From Ammoniphilus oxalaticus (lineage in GTDB: Bacteria; Bacillota; Bacilli; Aneurinibacillales; RAOX-1), in the NCBI RefSeq assembly GCF_003609605.1, contig NZ_MCHY01000009.1, positions 613,058 to 677,057 on the forward strand: 64,000 nucleotides of DNA, in the 5' to 3' direction. Positions 17,935 to 44,542 of the stretch are shown here, in pieces. How positions within the stretch are numbered: position 1 is the stretch's first letter; every line of letters starts with the position of its first letter. The position numbers and the translations under genes were made by a program. Under the pieces are notes generated by a model, which did not search any database, was not told the origin of the DNA, and saw nothing but the letters and a program-made list of their open reading frames with translations.

Positions 17935-19131
17935 TTAAGCTTTAAACGTAATCGGAAACGCTTTGACCCCATATACAAACGGGCTCTCGATAAACTCCAA
18001 ATTTGCTTCGGGAGCTAATTGAATATCTTGTAGCCGTTCGAGGATCGCGCGAATAGCATGCAGTCCTTCTAAACGAGCGAGCGGCGCCCCAAGGCAAAAG
18101 TGGATGCCAAAGCCAAACGAGAGGTGGTTGTTCGGTTTGCGATCGATGATGAATGTATTTGGATCGGTAAATTGAGCTTCGTCGCGGTTGGCGGAAGCGA
18201 CCCAGTTCACGACTTGTTCACCGGCCATAATCTGTTTGCCGCCTATTTGAATATCTTCGGTGGCGATGCGGCTAACCGCTTGAATCGGCGGGTAGAAGCG
18301 CAAGGCCTCCTCAATAAAGTTTTTAATTTGCGTGGGATCGTTTCGTAACTGTTGTTGCAAAGCTAGATCTTCTGTTAGTCGGCGTACGGAGTTGGTGATC
18401 AAGTTTGTCGTCGTTTCGTTGCCTGCCGCCAACAATAGAATGGAAAATCCGAGAATTTCCTCGTCGCTCAATTTTTCCCCTTCAATCTCCGCTGAAAGGA
18501 GCACTGAAATTAAATCATCTTTTGGCTGGCTGCGGCGTTGTCCGATAATTTTTGCAAAATAGGCCCCCAGTTCCTTGGTCGCTTTATCCTTTTCCATCAT
18601 CACACGCTCAAACGCCTCGGCAGAACTGTCCGCGCTCCCTTTAACGAGCGCATCCGACCACTCTTTAAACAGCTGTCGATCCTCAGCTGGGACACCCAAT
18701 AATTCGGCGATGATGATCACCGGCAACGGAGTTGCTAGATCATGGACCATGTCCATTTGCCCTTTCCCTTGTACAGCAGCGAGCAGCTCGCTGGTAATCG
18801 ATTCGATGCGCGGGGCTAAATCATTCACCATTTTCGGCGTAAAGGCCTTGTTCACCAATGCTCGCATCTGGCTGTGGCGCGGCGGGTCCATCGTCAAAAT
18901 GGTGACCGTATTTCCGCGTTCTAAGCTGCGTTTTGAGGAAAAGGTGGCAGGATCTTTTAAAATACGGTGTACATCTTCATAGCGAAAAATATCCCAACAG
19001 CCACGTGTTTCGTCGTAACGAACCGGAGTCGTCTGGCGTAATCGTTCGTAAATCGAAAAAGGATTTGCCCGATCTTCTGGCGATTGTAATTCTGGCATAG
19101 GAATTAGCGTTCTAGTCAACGTCGTTTGCAT
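17935..19131 (-). CDS. Cytochrome P450 (class I bacterial type)
   Basis: 398 aa, soluble. The heme-binding loop is FGFGIHFCLGAPLARLE with the axial cysteine; the I-helix oxygen-activation motif is AGNETTTNLI; the K-helix ExxR is EEALRFYPPI. The length and these motifs fit CYP107/YjiB-like monooxygenases, which hydroxylate fatty acids, macrolides or steroids. The start ATG 19131 has AAAGGAG 9 nt upstream. No ferredoxin or reductase gene is adjacent, so it must borrow redox partners. Single-gene unit. Substrate unknown. Confidence 0.93.
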   Translation of the reverse strand: MQTTLTRTLIPMPELQSPEDRANPFSIYERLRQTTPVRYDETRGCWDIFRYEDVHRILKDPATFSSKRSLERGNTVTILTMDPPRHSQMRALVNKAFTPKMVNDLAPRIESITSELLAAVQGKGQMDMVHDLATPLPVIIIAELLGVPAEDRQLFKEWSDALVKGSADSSAEAFERVMMEKDKATKELGAYFAKIIGQRRSQPKDDLISVLLSAEIEGEKLSDEEILGFSILLLAAGNETTTNLITNSVRRLTEDLALQQQLRNDPTQIKNFIEEALRFYPPIQAVSRIATEDIQIGGKQIMAGEQVVNWVASANRDEAQFTDPNTFIIDRKPNNHLSFGFGIHFCLGAPLARLEGLHAIRAILERLQDIQLAPEANLEFIESPFVYGVKAFPITFKA

Positions 19132-38728: not shown

Positions 38729-38884
38729 ATGGGGTTGGATACTCCACTAGCAGGGATAGACAGTTTGGCATTCGAAAATGAAGGTCCATTAGATATGGAG
38801 TGGGTGGAACTAATTCTGGAAGCCAAAAGGTTGGGGTTGAGTTTCGAAGAAGTTCGTAATTATTTTCGCCTTTTTCAAAAGTAA
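38729..38884 (+). CDS. sinI: SinI-type antirepressor
   Basis: 51 aa from ATG 38729 (AGGGGGAG 7 nt upstream). The second half, DMEWVELILEAKRLGLSFEEVRNYFRLFQK, is the SinI dimerisation domain (B. subtilis SinI has LDQEWVELMVEAKEANISPEEIRKYL). SinI binds SinR, breaks its dimers and so switches on matrix genes. sinR is 3.6 kb away instead of adjacent as in B. subtilis. Expression in B. subtilis depends on Spo0A; I see no clear Spo0A box here. Confidence 0.9.
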   Translation: MGLDTPLAGIDSLAFENEGPLDMEWVELILEAKRLGLSFEEVRNYFRLFQK

Positions 38885-39064
38885 TGATATGGGTTTTAAA
38901 AATTTGTTGGTCGATTCGATAGGTTGGTAGTTTAGCTAAAAAGAAGAACTACAATCTGTCGAAGATTGATGTGACCCCCAAAAATTAGATTTGTGACTCT
39001 CGCTCTTGTGGCGCGGGTCAGACTCCTTTCGAGTGTTGCCATGCATTAATTTTTGAGTCCTATC

Positions 39065-39103
39065 GTTCTTGATATAGAACAAGGGCGTTATGATATAAAG
39101 AAC
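39065..39103 (+). promoter_or_regulatory. SinR-type operator(s) upstream of the 62-aa gene
   Basis: GTTCTTGATATAGAAC (39065-39080) fits GTTC-N8-GAAC as at the eps promoter. A second, looser site ends in AAAGAAC at 39097-39103. TTGATA (39069-39074) and GATATA (39092-39097) at 17 bp could be the promoter, so both sites would overlap it. Confidence 0.55.
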
Positions 39104-39118
39104 GATCATAAGGAAGTA

Positions 39119-39307
39119 ATGAAACGTGATTTCAACAATTATGAAGCGTCGCAGGTTATTTTTCATCAGCCATTCGCTTTTAAAATGCCCAATCTTGGAA
39201 TCCGGGCCAAGGGAACAGAGATCACCTTGGAAAAGGAAACGGATCGCCTAACGGTCATCCAGTCGGATCGACGAATCCGGGAAAGGGTAAAGGCAATAAA
39301 AAAATAG
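39119..39307 (+). CDS. Small basic hypothetical protein (62 aa), probable SinR target
   Basis: ATG 39119 with AAGGAA 4-5 nt upstream. The product starts MKRDFNNYEASQVIFHQPFA and ends with a charged helix (SDRRIRERVKAIKK). No signal peptide and no recognised domain. Two SinR-like sites lie directly upstream and a terminator directly downstream, so it appears as an individually regulated gene of the biofilm regulon; it could be a small regulator. Function is not known to me. Confidence 0.5.
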   Translation: MKRDFNNYEASQVIFHQPFAFKMPNLGIRAKGTEITLEKETDRLTVIQSDRRIRERVKAIKK

Positions 39308-39347: not shown

Positions 39348-39569
39348 TTACATAAGACCTGTAACCAAGGTCTTCTTTTTTTCCTCGCTAATCCAATTCT
39401 TCATGCCTTCTTGGAAGCTCAACCAGCTGCTTGCAAATCCAATAAAAGGGTAGACGAGGTCATTCCTGAAACTAATAAATGCTAATAAGGCTCCGACCGT
39501 GCGCGTTCTATAGGCGCCCATCCACGAGAGATCGCCATGAAGACGAGCAAGATGAGGTACGTTTTCCAC
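39348..39569 (-). pseudogene. Remnant of an ABC exporter membrane domain
   Basis: The frame contains TVGALLAFISFRNDLVYPF followed by IGFASSWLSFQEG, which matches the fifth/sixth helix region of peptide-type ABC exporters (usually TVGxLIAFxSFLxxLxxPI...). It then ends after 17 unrelated residues, and the upstream part is not ABC-like, so only about 60 codons survive. It lies directly downstream of the S26-peptidase/PqqD/HPr-kinase cassette in the same direction. An exporter may therefore once have belonged to that operon. Confidence 0.6.
39354..39382 (+). terminator. Terminator of the 62-aa gene
   Basis: AAGACCT (39354-39360), loop GTAACCA, AGGTCTT (39368-39374), then CTTTTTTT. Confidence 0.8.
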
Positions 39570-39629
39570 TAGGTACGAATAAAAGAAAAAATCCTTTGCA
39601 GTGGAATCATGCTATGAGTTCGCATGTAT

Positions 39630-40124
39630 TTAATGGGATCCATTTGATTGTCCCTTCCTGGATGCGATCTCTTTTAATCGTCTCCAATAGTAAAAACCCT
39701 TTTTGCAATAAACAGGAACTGTGGGAAAAGAGAGAATGAACCGAGTCCAGATGCGCGTCACCCTCCCGCCTGTTTTTAGAACCGATCGTTTCTTTTTAAT
39801 GGATATCAATTTACCAATTAGCTGTTCAGGCGAAAGCGGGGGATCAAATTGAACATTCGAATCCCCTTTGAAAGCGTGAAAAAGAATCTGGTTCTTTAAA
39901 AAACTGTGATAATAACGGTGCCCGATCAGTTGACCGTCCTCCGTTTGGAACAAATAGACATCTCCTTTTTTAAGATCCAGCTCTGCGGATAATGGGACAA
40001 AGCGGCATATATCGCCTTCTTTAATCAACGGAAACATGCTCACTCCGCTGGCAGGGATATCGACCCAGCCTTTTTTTGCAAGGATCGATTTAATGCTTGA
40101 ACCTAGTGGGTTAACGTTGCTCAT
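39630..40124 (-). CDS. S24/S26-family signal-peptidase-like protein
   Basis: About 164 aa from ATG 40124 (overlapping the PqqD gene by 14 bp). WVDIPASGVSMFPLIKEGDI holds the nucleophile serine (S-M-x-P) and FHAFKGDSN a lysine in the KGD motif; both are typical of the short S24/S26 proteins that occur with HPr-kinase-like and PqqD-like genes in polysaccharide or peptide loci. Only one C-terminal hydrophobic stretch (FILSFPTVPVYC) is visible, so membrane attachment is weak. It may cut a precursor handled by its operon partners. Last gene of a four-gene operon. Confidence 0.8.
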   Translation of the reverse strand: MSNVNPLGSSIKSILAKKGWVDIPASGVSMFPLIKEGDICRFVPLSAELDLKKGDVYLFQTEDGQLIGHRYYHSFLKNQILFHAFKGDSNVQFDPPLSPEQLIGKLISIKKKRSVLKTGGRVTRIWTRFILSFPTVPVYCKKGFYYWRRLKEIASRKGQSNGSH

Positions 40125-40359
40125 GAACGAGCCCGATCTTTTCCAGTTGTTGAATAAATCCAATTGTTTCATATCTGATTTTTTCGGAGTCGGCTTGAAA
40201 TTGACGCGTGATCATTTCTATGATCTGCTCGATTGTTTTATGCGCTAACAACGCCTCCACAATATAGGCGCCCATCCGATTAATTTTTGTAATCGTAAAT
40301 CCTTCGGTATCCATGACGACCCATTCTCCATCCATCTCAATCAGTTCGATGTGATTCAT
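40111..40359 (-). CDS. PqqD-family peptide chaperone (HPr-rel-A type)
   Basis: 82 aa from ATG 40359, sharing ATGA with the stop of the HPr-kinase gene. It starts MNHIELIEMDGEWVVMDTEG and continues FTITKINRMGAYIVEALLAHKTIEQIIEMI, the winged-helix fold of PqqD and of RiPP recognition elements. Such proteins present a peptide to a modifying enzyme. No precursor peptide gene is evident next to it. Confidence 0.85.
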   Translation of the reverse strand: MNHIELIEMDGEWVVMDTEGFTITKINRMGAYIVEALLAHKTIEQIIEMITRQFQADSEKIRYETIGFIQQLEKIGLVHEQR

Positions 40360-41147
40360 GAAATCAACTCCCAAAATCGGTTGTTTTTTTGAAAATACAA
40401 TTGGCGCGCGGGTACCGCGGTAATTAACTGCTGGCATAAGTGAAGTATTTTTTTCGTCTCGCTTGTATCATGCGGCCAGTAGAACACTTTGTCGATGAGT
40501 TGAAAAAGTGTTTCCGTTCGGTTGAGCGGCTTTGTTTTCACGTCCGACGATTGTGTAAGTAAGTAGATCGCGGTGAGCGGACAAAAGGGTTGACGCCCTG
40601 TCATTGCCAATTCACTATTAAAAGGCGACGGCAGTACCTGAACTGCCCCGTCCGTAATTTTTAGAATGGTTGCTTCATCGGAATAAACTGCCCGCGGCTG
40701 AGATAGTTTGGCCACGGTTGATTTTCCCGCTCCCGAACGCCCCGCAAATAAATAGGCTTTCCCCGCCTGTTCAAGGCAAGAGGAATGGAGCAGCAATCCC
40801 CAAGATTGATAAACAATGAACGCGCTGTATAAATTCATCAGGGCATGTTTTAAAGCGACCGCATCGAGAACGAGCAGCTTTGCGCGATTAAAAGATGTAT
40901 CAATAGTGATCCGATAATCCGAGCGTTCATAAGCGATCATTCCTTGTCTATTCGTTATAACGACATGAAAATCAGTCGTTGTCACGCCAATTGGGTATGG
41001 TTCAAGACGCGCCTGAAGATCCACCTTCTTTGGCGGGGGATTAAGGATGAACGAAGCATAGTCTTGGTAGATTAGTTGAATCATTTGTTCCTGAGCGCTT
41101 TCGATTTGAAAAATGTGTTCACCAATTTTAAGATGAGTCTGGTACAT
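40356..41147 (-). CDS. HPr-kinase-related protein (HprK-related kinase)
   Basis: 263 aa. The C-terminal half has the HprK core: catalytic His in LLLHSSCLEQAGKAYLFAG, P-loop GRSGAGKST (about residues 133-142) and YSDEATIL in place of ADDxVE. The N-terminal half is not the HprK Ser-sensing domain but a short approximately 110-aa beta region. Homologues are paired with PqqD-like proteins and nucleotidyltransferases in exopolysaccharide loci (HPr-rel-A system) and in some lasso peptide clusters, where the kinase phosphorylates the precursor peptide. The start is ATG 41147 with AGGAGG at 6 nt; that ribosome-binding site directly continues a family A repeat (41158-41180). Confidence 0.85.
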   Translation of the reverse strand: MYQTHLKIGEHIFQIESAQEQMIQLIYQDYASFILNPPPKKVDLQARLEPYPIGVTTTDFHVVITNRQGMIAYERSDYRITIDTSFNRAKLLVLDAVALKHALMNLYSAFIVYQSWGLLLHSSCLEQAGKAYLFAGRSGAGKSTVAKLSQPRAVYSDEATILKITDGAVQVLPSPFNSELAMTGRQPFCPLTAIYLLTQSSDVKTKPLNRTETLFQLIDKVFYWPHDTSETKKILHLCQQLITAVPARQLYFQKNNRFWELIS

Positions 41148-41157
41148 AGGATGCCTC

Positions 41158-41180
41158 CTTTTTTATTGAATATTGTTGGT
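41158..41180 (+). repeat. Family A 23-mer abutting a ribosome-binding site
   Basis: CTTTTTTATTG followed by AATATTGTTGGT. Read on the minus strand its AAAAAAG end runs into GAGG, making AAGGAGG, the ribosome-binding site of the HPr-kinase-like gene. Confidence 0.8.
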
Positions 41181-41200
41181 TTTTACGGCGCGGTCGACAG

Positions 41201-42310
41201 TCATTTCCTGCTGATCATCGCCGCAAATTGCCCCCATCTTTGTTTGTACAATTTGAATAAGGAGCTCCCGTGGGAATCTTCGTCACCTACCGCTTTACAC
41301 TCATAAGCGGCCATCGCTTGTCCTGGGATGAACCATGTGGCCAGCTTTCTCAGTCGGTCCCGAGGTGAATCGAAATCAAGGAATTCAAAACAGAACATGT
41401 TGGCGTATTGCTTGTATGTTTTGTAATCGTGATTGCGGATCGCCTCGTATTCCCACCAGCGTGTTGTATTGCTTGTCAAAGGAAAGATATTAACTGGTTT
41501 AAGGTGAGGAAATTGTTGATAGACGATCGATAGTGTTTTGCGTATTCGTTGTTCGGTTCCTTGTCTGATCATCTCTCTTTCTAGTCGTTTCCAGTCAAAC
41601 TGTGGACCGATTACACTGATCACCCGCAAAATATCAATGAAGTATTTTAAACAGTTTAAATGATGTCGCCAGCCGTGCAGACAAATCATATAGAAGGTGT
41701 GATAGTCGCTCAATTCACGGATATATTCACTCGTTTGGATCGGTTTCGACTCCGCCCAAAATTCATCCATCGACAATTGAGAAGTTCGCTCTTGCAACAA
41801 TCCCCAGTGCAATTCAACTGTTAAGGGGATATTAGAGTGAGGAAGCGCTTGACTAAAGCTGAGATGAAAATGCGCAGGGATCGGTTCTTCATCGATTGTA
41901 AAGCCTAAATCCCTCACGACAGCGGCTGCCTGACTCAGCTCGGCTTGAGGGATGAGCAGATCAATATCTGACGTCCACCTTGCAGATAGTTTCCCGAAAT
42001 ACGTTTCGATAAAATGGGTTCCTTTTAATGGAATCACATAAATGTGAGCTTCCTCAAAGGCAGCTAAAATTTGTTCCATCTTTCTTTTAATGTACAGATT
42101 TTGTAAGAAGGCCTGATTGGCCTGTTGTTTTAAAGCCTTTTGGAAAAAAACTGGCGTTTGATGTACGGCGTTTCGCTGTTCTAAGTAAAATAGAATTTGC
42201 GGTGAGATGGAGAAGTGCTCAATATCAGTAAGAGCCTTTTCATACCAGGTAGTCTCACTTGGTAAAGGGAGCTCTGGGTCATGCAGAGTGGTGATGAATG
42301 GGCGTAACAA
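41201..42310 (-). CDS. Nucleotidyltransferase-fold protein (PF14907-like)
   Basis: About 369 aa from TTG 42310, 6 nt after AGGAGGG; the frame extends to a TTG at 42343, which lies next to the predicted transcription start. The nucleotidyltransferase centre is visible as LKGTHFIETYFGKLSARWTSDIDLLIP (G-x-x-x ... D-x-D), followed by a helical domain and LTVELHWGLLQ, typical of the uncharacterised NTP_transf_5 family. These occur beside HPr-kinase-like and PqqD genes. First gene of the operon. Target unknown; it may transfer a nucleotide to a sugar, lipid or peptide. Confidence 0.8.
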   Translation of the reverse strand: MLRPFITTLHDPELPLPSETTWYEKALTDIEHFSISPQILFYLEQRNAVHQTPVFFQKALKQQANQAFLQNLYIKRKMEQILAAFEEAHIYVIPLKGTHFIETYFGKLSARWTSDIDLLIPQAELSQAAAVVRDLGFTIDEEPIPAHFHLSFSQALPHSNIPLTVELHWGLLQERTSQLSMDEFWAESKPIQTSEYIRELSDYHTFYMICLHGWRHHLNCLKYFIDILRVISVIGPQFDWKRLEREMIRQGTEQRIRKTLSIVYQQFPHLKPVNIFPLTSNTTRWWEYEAIRNHDYKTYKQYANMFCFEFLDFDSPRDRLRKLATWFIPGQAMAAYECKAVGDEDSHGSSLFKLYKQRWGQFAAMISRK

Positions 42311-42344
42311 AGAATACCCTCCTAACAATTTGGATTCAATCAAC

Positions 42345-42377
42345 GTTCATTATAAAGAACGTAATTGGAGTTGTAAA
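42345..42377 (-). promoter_or_regulatory. SinR-box promoter of the HPr-kinase/PqqD operon
   Basis: On the minus strand TTTACA (42372-42377), 17 bp, TATAAT (42349-42354). The -10 is inside the palindrome GTTCATTATAAAGAAC (42345-42360), the same 16-mer found in the sinR promoter. SinR should repress this operon. Confidence 0.8.
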
Positions 42378-42403: not shown

Positions 42404-42432
42404 TTGACTCGTTCATTATAAAGAACTATAAT
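42404..42432 (+). promoter_or_regulatory. sinR promoter with SinR operator filling the spacer
   Basis: TTGACT (42404-42409), 17-bp spacer, TATAAT (42427-42432). The 16-bp palindrome GTTCATTATAAAGAAC (42411-42426) fills the spacer, which indicates autoregulation. Its right half AAAGAAC equals the complement of the B. subtilis SinR half-site GTTCTTT. Confidence 0.85.
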
Positions 42433-42478
42433 GGAGCGCGATTGCTCTCGGAAAAATGAATGGATTGTAGGTGACGTG

Positions 42479-42817
42479 GTGATTGGACAGCGCATTAAAA
42501 GATTAAGGGAAGAGAGAGGATATTCCATCACGGAACTTGCTAGCCTGGCGGAAGTATCTAAATCATATTTAAGTTACATTGAGAGGAACTTGCAAAATAA
42601 TCCTTCTCTTCAGTTTTTAACAAAGGTGGCAGTACCCTTGGAGACTACCCTCGAGTTCTTACTCGAAGACACTGCCAAAGAGGAGGATAAGCTTGACGAG
42701 GAATGGAAGCAGCTCATTCAAAATGGGATTGAAGAGGGCATGAGCAAAGAGGATTTTCAAGCCTTCAAAGATTTTATTCGTTTTAAAAAGTGGAAAAATA
42801 ATGAACAGGATAATTAA
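42479..42817 (+). CDS. sinR: SinR-type master regulator of biofilm formation
   Basis: 112 aa from GTG 42479 (AGGTG just upstream); B. subtilis SinR has 111. The N-terminal HTH is MIGQRIKRLREERGYSITELASLAEVSKSYLSYIERNLQNNPSLQFL, nearly collinear with SinR. The C-terminal LDEEWKQLIQNGIEEGMSKEDFQAFKDFIRFKKW is the SinI-binding/dimerisation domain. It should repress eps genes through GTTC-N8-GAAC sites until SinI binds it. It lies between its own promoter and the eps promoter; both contain operators. Confidence 0.95.
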   Translation: MIGQRIKRLREERGYSITELASLAEVSKSYLSYIERNLQNNPSLQFLTKVAVPLETTLEFLLEDTAKEEDKLDEEWKQLIQNGIEEGMSKEDFQAFKDFIRFKKWKNNEQDN

Positions 42818-42823
42818 TTTCTA

Positions 42824-42852
42824 TTGACTTGTTCGTTATAAAGAACTACACT
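42824..42852 (+). promoter_or_regulatory. eps operon promoter with SinR operator in the spacer
   Basis: TTGACT (42824-42829), 17 bp, TACACT (42847-42852). The palindrome GTTCGTTATAAAGAAC (42831-42846) occupies the spacer. The weaker -10 compared with the sinR promoter fits a gene set that is off by default. Confidence 0.85.
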
Positions 42853-42939
42853 GATTAGTATGTTAGTCCGTTTTATCTATTTGCAGTGGTGTTCTGTATA
42901 TTGAACATTCCATCCAAAAAAAGAACGATGGAGGAAACC

Positions 42940-43659
42940 GTGGACAAAGAAATTAAAATCATTGATTTTATTCATCCGCTTAAGAAACGATGGAAATTAA
43001 TCTTGCTTGTTACGGTCGCGACGGCCCTGATTAGTGGGTTGTATAGCTTCAAGACGACGACGCTTTTGTATCAAACGCATACGCGTATTTTACTTGGTCC
43101 GCAGCAAGGGAATTTAGTATCAACAATGGCGATCGTAATTAAGGATCCCGTTGTGCTTGATCAAGTGTCGGACAGGCTAGATCAGTCCCGCTCGTCACGG
43201 GCGCTGAGCGGCCAGATTAGTCTTTCTAGCGAGAATGATTCCCAGTTTGTGAAGATCACGGCGTCAGATGCGGATCCTGAGATGGCCGCTCAAATTGCCA
43301 ATATCGGCGCCGAAGTTTTCATTAAGGAAATTGGGAACATCCTCGGTGTTTACGATGCAAAAGTGTTATCTGAGGCTAGCCCGAATTTTGCGCCGATCAA
43401 TGCCAAGCCCCGCTACAATATGGATCTTGGTTTAGTCGCTGGGATCGTCATTAGTATCGGAATTGTATTGTTATTGGATAGCATGGACCACAGCATCCGC
43501 TCTGAACGAGAAATTCGAGAAAAATTACATTTGTCTGTCTTAGGGACCGTTTCGAAAGGATCGAAGAAAAATTTTCGGCGCGTAACGAGTGTTGAGCGCG
43601 CGGTTAGGAAGGATCAGAAGAAACGGGCGAGGGGAGAGGACGGTGTGGTCGATGTTTAA
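42940..43659 (+). CDS. epsA: Chain-length regulator / BY-kinase activator (Wzz-YveK type)
   Basis: 239 aa from GTG 42940 (GGAGG 6 nt upstream). Two transmembrane helices, ILLVTVATALISGLYSF near the N-terminus and LVAGIVISIGIVLLLD near residue 165, enclose an extracellular domain; the cytoplasmic C-terminus is basic. This is the CapA/YveK layout: it activates the partner kinase and sets polysaccharide length. First gene of the eps operon, directly after the SinR-controlled promoter. It overlaps the next gene slightly. Confidence 0.9.
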   Translation: MDKEIKIIDFIHPLKKRWKLILLVTVATALISGLYSFKTTTLLYQTHTRILLGPQQGNLVSTMAIVIKDPVVLDQVSDRLDQSRSSRALSGQISLSSENDSQFVKITASDADPEMAAQIANIGAEVFIKEIGNILGVYDAKVLSEASPNFAPINAKPRYNMDLGLVAGIVISIGIVLLLDSMDHSIRSEREIREKLHLSVLGTVSKGSKKNFRRVTSVERAVRKDQKKRARGEDGVVDV

Positions 43660-44313: not shown

Positions 44314-44329
44314 GTTCATTATAAAGAAC
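44314..44329 (+). promoter_or_regulatory. SinR-type site between epsB and epsC
   Basis: GTTCATTATAAAGAAC, identical to the site in the sinR promoter. No -35/-10 pair fits around it, so it may be a roadblock or an auxiliary binding site. Confidence 0.75.
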
Positions 44330-44509: not shown

Positions 44510-44542
44510 AGTTAGAAATAAGAGAAAGTGGAGGTGAACAAG

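Follow-up and report, generated by a model that had tools for sequence, protein, structure and literature searches.

A SinR-associated core of a linear polyphosphorylated peptide cluster in Ammoniphilus oxalaticus, with a broken exporter gene and a candidate precursor encoded at a distance

The window analysed here, a stretch of 64,000 nucleotides (nt) from Ammoniphilus oxalaticus (contig NZ_MCHY01000009.1, positions 613,058 to 677,057), carries four genuine minus-strand genes divergent from sinR, which encode a nucleotidyltransferase, an HprK-like kinase, a PqqD protein and a SipW-like S26 peptidase. This cassette is almost certainly the lppN-K-B-S core of the linear polyphosphorylated peptides (LPPs), a family of ribosomally synthesized and post-translationally modified peptides (RiPPs) published by Popov et al. 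in May 2026 (PMC13381572), where neither SinR nor sortases are mentioned. As the explanation of the locus as a whole, we favour with moderate confidence an LPP core that is controlled by SinR, has lost its exporter and acts on a precursor, LppA, encoded outside the window. The genes of the cassette are as follows.

41201..42310, minus strand: lppN, NTP_transf_5 nucleotidyltransferase of 369 amino acids (aa) (PF14907, E about 2e-34 to 3e-34)
40356..41147, minus strand: lppK, HprK-like peptide kinase with the P-loop GRSGAGKST and an SDEA motif (identified by LppK relatives)
40111..40359, minus strand: lppB, peptide chaperone of the PqqD type, a RiPP recognition element (RRE) (PF05402, E 1e-12)
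39630..40172, minus strand: lppS, SipW-like S26 leader peptidase, possible later start at 40124 (alignment with relatives; the S26 assignment scores under the curated cut-offs of TIGR02228 and NF046067)

An earlier interpretation made from the letters of this DNA, here called the sequence-only reading, had placed a RiPP-type kinase cassette of these four genes next to sinR, and family matches bear this out. It had described the genes as overlapping, which holds for lppK/lppB and lppB/lppS, whereas lppN and lppK are 53 nt apart. The preferred start of lppN is TTG 42310, with GGAGGG 7 nt upstream of the start codon; its GxxSxRxTSDxDLL motif is intact, and G117, R122, D126 and D128 (numbering of the longer reading frame) are invariant, the lasso N protein included. 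LppK is 47-48% identical to the LppK proteins of two relatives with an invariant catalytic block, lppB starts at ATG 40359 and overlaps the lppK stop, and LppS retains S45, H85, D104 and D110, so that the catalytic residues are conserved in alignments with relatives.

The assignment to the LPPs was made because the core genes and the leader motif are those of PMC13381572. Kinase, RRE, SipW-like peptidase and nucleotidyltransferase are encoded together in the window, and a kinase profile search returned 39 named Bacillales loci or homologues, nearly all of which carry kinase, PqqD, S26 peptidase, ABC exporter and nucleotidyltransferase as a unit. A blind search for common short open reading frames (ORFs), as the sequence-only reading had proposed, found such an ORF ahead of the kinase gene in most of these loci; its core varies and is often rich in Gly/Asn, and its conserved leader is the published LPP motif YxxPxVLxHQxIxFETxxS. 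The RRE, the MsbA-like exporter of the relatives and the association with lasso clusters and polysaccharide loci likewise agree with the published description, since about one third of the Bacillales cassettes adjoin a complete lasso cluster and several adjoin Wzz/Wze genes. In Ammoniphilus sp. YIM 78166, of the same family as the present genome, exporter, S26 peptidase, PqqD, kinase and nucleotidyltransferase lie divergent from a sinR 69% identical to that of the window and followed by eps, with lppD intact and a local lppA. When the window LppB was searched as a single sequence against PDB, the sole match was 9x8z, a "PqqD family protein" (E 2e-9), which we take to be the LppB of PMC13381572 because its sequence matches the residue numbering of that paper. 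There, Asn33 and Asp70 of LppB recognise the Tyr leader; the window LppB has Asn33 but Glu for Asp70. At position 33, this Asn and the Gly in the B1 protein of this genome's lasso cluster, as in the RREs of paeninodin clusters, agree with the published specificity rule.

Two other identities had been put forward for the cassette. The name HPr-rel-A, which would imply a polysaccharide-associated system not acting on peptides, draws on weak matches to HprK_rel_A and ScmC, on the eps neighbourhood and on the pairing of an HprK-related kinase with a PqqD-like protein, as also found in SynChlorMet cassettes. These matches reach 42-48 bits where the cut-offs are 200 and 125 (TIGR04352: 41.8 bits versus 200), for which reason both assignments were rejected; moreover, homologous loci have a conserved RRE, leader peptides and a leader peptidase, and LppK phosphorylates a peptide (PMC13381572), which makes this explanation extremely improbable. 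The second option, a once complete lasso cluster stripped and put to another use, is also very unlikely. Kinase, PqqD and NTP_transf_5 are indeed shared with paeninodin-type clusters, beside which a third of the cassettes lie, but those clusters require a cyclase C, a B2 protease and a WxxP leader, none of which occurs in the cassette with its SipW-like peptidase; its proteins are nearer to LPP than to lasso relatives (kinase identity 47-48% versus 28%), and the relatives have a precursor family of their own without cyclase or B2. In addition, a complete paeninodin-type cluster is present about 30 kb away, in a region of the same contig designated L003 (C9:676000-695900). It extends over L003:8121-15108 with its own nucleotidyltransferase, cyclase, precursor, kinase, B1, B2 and exporter (cyclase, B2 and WxxP precursor at L003:9430-15108), and the precursor belongs to the PadeA family (NF033524, E 2e-14) with the core GNDGDFTDDVFPTNTPRGELTFS ending in Ser. 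Of the lasso relationship suggested earlier, the shared protein families thus remain and the conversion does not.

The second main line of evidence concerns regulation. The operators and promoters are listed here together with the genes.

42349..42377, minus strand: lppN promoter, TTTACA-17-TATAAT (11 of 12 positions match, equal best within 5.7 kb)
42345..42360: SinR-type operator enclosing the lppN -10 hexamer, GTTCATTATAAAGAAC
42411..42426: SinR-type operator within the sinR promoter, in the 17-nt spacer between TTGACT 42404 and TATAAT 42432, GTTCATTATAAAGAAC
42431..42817, plus strand: sinR-like repressor gene, likely start GTG 42479, helix-turn-helix and SinI-type domain (B. subtilis SinR 1b0n/3zkc, E 1e-28)
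42831..42846: SinR-type operator within the eps promoter, in the 17-nt spacer between TTGACT 42824 and TACACT 42852, GTTCGTTATAAAGAAC
42886..43659, plus strand: gene for a chain-length protein of the Wzz/CpsC type, the first of eps (E 1e-34 with TIGR01006, short of its cut-off)
42891..42906: second eps operator of the SinR type, where the operon begins
44314..44329: SinR-type operator ahead of the eps gene that follows, at 44528
39065..39080: SinR-type operator on the far side of the lppD remnant

The best promoter matches of lppN, sinR and eps thus coincide with operators of the form GTTC-N8-GAAC, and the operators shared by cassette, sinR and eps, a point of the sequence-only reading, are confirmed at 42345, 42411 and 42831. 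The preferred target of purified B. subtilis SinR is an inverted repeat that includes GTTCTCTAAAGAGAAC, which is GTTC-N8-GAAC (PMC3163267), and the window operators share the exact 16-bp geometry of the SinR oligonucleotide used there. Since the window SinR and B. subtilis SinR have nearly identical recognition helices, and the GTTCTYT inverted repeats have the same spacing and overlap promoters, that of eps among them, the locus resembles the B. subtilis SinR regulon (eps, tapA-sipW-tasA). It differs by having RiPP operons as candidate members; the literature searched, which comprised open-access papers only, yielded no study that connects SinR with lasso peptides or LPPs or reports such operons in the regulon. 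The 3.3 Mb genome has 18 sites of the refined operator form GTTCNNNWWNNAGAAC, of which 11 lie in the 40-kb stretch that runs from the lpp cassette as far as the sinI genes (binomial P 2e-17). The lasso cluster also has two SinR-type operators before its cyclase gene, with one operator, at L003:9309, directly downstream of TTGACA-17-TACAAT, and sinI-like and sinR-like genes behind it. Altogether, three SinI-like antirepressors (window 38729-38884, plus strand; L003:16027-16164 and 17957-18112, minus strand) and two SinR-like proteins surround the locus, which suggests more than one Sin switch.

The association extends to related genomes. Using a matrix built from the sites of this genome and the B. 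subtilis-type operator, and counting sites with a score of at least 12 that lie no more than 700 nt from the lpp operon, an operator was found in 30 of 34 related genomes with full-length SinR versus none of five without (Fisher P 2e-4). The exact GTTC-N8-GAAC is present in 24 of 40 lpp upstream regions, compared with at most one for permuted arms or for other gaps, and the operators are usually placed about 50-60 and 150-170 nt upstream of the leader Tyr codon. Near the start of each of the 11 lasso cyclase genes that were examined there is a site scoring 12 or more, the matrix having been trained without lasso sites. Homologous cassettes do occur together with SinR-type sites and eps neighbours and their catalytic residues are conserved, so that neither refuting condition of the sequence-only reading applies. 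On the other side of the balance, four genomes with SinR have no lpp site, and the lpp loci are phylogenetically related, so that the operator counts are not independent. On this basis the lpp core is very probably under SinR control, as far as operators, promoter overlap and conservation can indicate regulation in vivo. A further repeat, TTTG-N8-CAAA, is recurrent as well (16 of 40 lpp upstream regions).

A genome-wide search for LppA found one protein, of 208 aa (L003:17111-17737, minus strand), which carries KKEPYVSPLILEHKKMIFETMIS and is encoded about 38 kb from the cassette and about 16 kb past the end of the window. Its leader scores E 0.0015 for 100,000 ORFs with a hidden Markov model (HMM) built from short LppAs only, and it keeps Y-16, P-13, L-10, F-3, E-2, T-1 and S3, the positions tested in PMC13381572. 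The leader is followed by a Gly/Ser-rich region, LPNTG, a hydrophobic stretch and a basic tail, and the 3' end of the gene is overlapped by a class D sortase gene (L003:16563-17123, minus strand; NF058671, E 9e-50); the wall-sorting assignment was made because of the LPNTG motif and this neighbouring sortase. An operator-like sequence, GTCCTATAATGAGAAC, covers the promoter around the -10 element. When sought in plasmids, the protein had no match. The distal LppA is the only recognisable substrate in the genome and is probably wall-anchored. Noted earlier as absent, precursor, cyclase and B2 protease are indeed missing from the window, yet each is encoded 30-38 kb farther along the same contig. 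The overall interpretation of the sequence-only reading consequently stands with regard to the RiPP kinase cassette and the shared operators, and falls with regard to the HPr-rel-A label, the converted lasso cluster and the missing precursor, which is 38 kb away and fused to a sorting signal.

Unlike the LPP clusters of PMC13381572, the window copy has neither lppA nor a working lppD, the MsbA-like exporter gene that is intact in nearly all relatives. The exporter remnant already noticed directly behind the cassette was recovered by tblastn and BLASTP.

39402..39628, minus strand: lppD pseudogene, remains of a gene for an ABC exporter of 619 aa (E 1e-7 and 6e-4 by tblastn)

It is regarded as a pseudogene because only two collinear fragments remain: when aligned with the intact exporter of Ammoniphilus sp. 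YIM 78166, one covers residues 38-70 and is interrupted by a stop, and the other covers residues 304-345. The locus is accordingly filed as an incomplete, split LPP cluster with an intact leader about 38 kb off on the same contig. A relic of lppA in the window was considered for the ORF 39119-39307 (plus strand, YEASQVIFHQPFAFKM), which by eye resembles YxAPQVLxHQPIxFET and occupies the same slot as the antisense lppA of three related loci (L019, L049 and L051); the leader HMM gave only E 7, a nearby match of the genome search is in a different frame, and no relic is claimed. The longer version of this small ORF (39053-39307, plus strand) begins around a SinR-type operator, its N-terminus being LPP-leader-like by eye and not by HMM.

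The main rival to an action in trans is recent decay, in which exporter and local precursor were lost, the four other genes are intact only through the recency of the loss and no product is made. The clear pseudogene lppD, the missing lppA and the patchy gain and loss of LPPs in Bacilli (PMC13381572) fit this explanation, as does the Glu in the window LppB at the place of the conserved Asp70 that contacts the leader Tyr (residues read off the alignment). Several of these points, too, weigh against our explanation: no close full-length LppD exists elsewhere in the genome (best of 26 ABC matches 34% identical), the leader HMM finds no significant lppA in the window, the operator of the distal LppA has one mismatch and its sorting tail reaches no library threshold. 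Decay is opposed by the four intact ORFs with their catalytic residues, ribosome sites, promoter and operator, and by the persistence of a full-length LppA with every required residue; we judge it a serious possibility, though one against which the balance tips. That the window copy works in trans on the distal LppA is, taken by itself, an evenly poised proposition.

If the core does act on the distal LppA, LppB would bind its YxxP leader, judged from the P. alginolyticus system, and LppK may polyphosphorylate core Ser3, as demonstrated for P. alginolyticus alone, where LppS cuts after FET with the help of LppB (PMC13381572); LppS of the window would by analogy cleave at the same place. LppN may attach a further group: it was inactive in the host used for the P. 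alginolyticus system (PMC13381572), and PsmN, a related protein of a lasso cluster, adds hexoses to phosphoserine (PMC9266682). The distal LppA would then be exported by another ABC transporter and anchored. At lppN, sinR, eps and the lasso operon, RNA polymerase is predicted to be blocked by SinR until SinI releases all of them together, so that the modified product would appear with the matrix. The earlier suggestion that a phosphorylated peptide is made along with the matrix is thus likely to be right, to the extent that it can be read from sequence.

The LPP family is already known; what appears to be new is the link to the SinR regulon and the existence of wall-anchored or very long precursors. 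PMC13381572 describes no SinR-type operators, no wall-sorting tails and no precursors far above 200 aa; it gives a size range of 35-200 aa and states the role of LPPs and paeninodins as unknown and that in biofilms as untested. The conserved SinR-type operators before LPP and lasso clusters lead to the prediction that both are derepressed with the matrix genes, and the distal, probably wall-anchored LppA would be the first concrete handle on a possible role of such phosphopeptides. A more speculative idea, to which we give little credence, is that LPP and paeninodin RiPPs serve as structural components of the matrix under SinR control: the LPP machinery would add phosphate, and perhaps sugar, to the N-termini of surface proteins that are sortase-anchored or long and repetitive, and these would in this way tether exopolysaccharide to the cell wall.

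Long precursors were also found in relatives. Ammoniphilus sp. YIM 78166 has a homologous LppA of 214 aa with an operator, beside a lasso cluster and a second sinR, and its tail is similar (LPNAS..., scoring slightly below the TIGR01167 cut-off); its sortase homologue lies about 32 kb from this gene, so that the coupling of LppA and sortase is seen in the A. oxalaticus genome only. Precursors of 200-560 aa, together with wall anchoring, suggest that the products include surface proteins modified at the N-terminus and are not in every case diffusible peptides, which, if true, would alter the targets of mass spectrometry. An ORF of Alicyclobacillus beside a sortase (L091:2056-2901), which combines a stretch resembling the leader with Thr/Pro repeats and a sorting-like tail in a protein of surface type, is ambiguous and was not accepted as LppA, as a Sec-type signal precedes the leader-like stretch and the score is weak (E 0.16). 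In Domibacillus, a 564-aa LppA (L090:2646-4340) with an LPP leader followed by long Pro/Glu repeats (E 1.5e-9) adjoins a lasso exporter and has two SinR-type sites upstream, and in two Rossellomorea loci (L029:8926-9441 and L033:8994-9473) a CFI-box-CTERM domain is attached to the LPP leader (for L029, NF041770 with E 1e-12).

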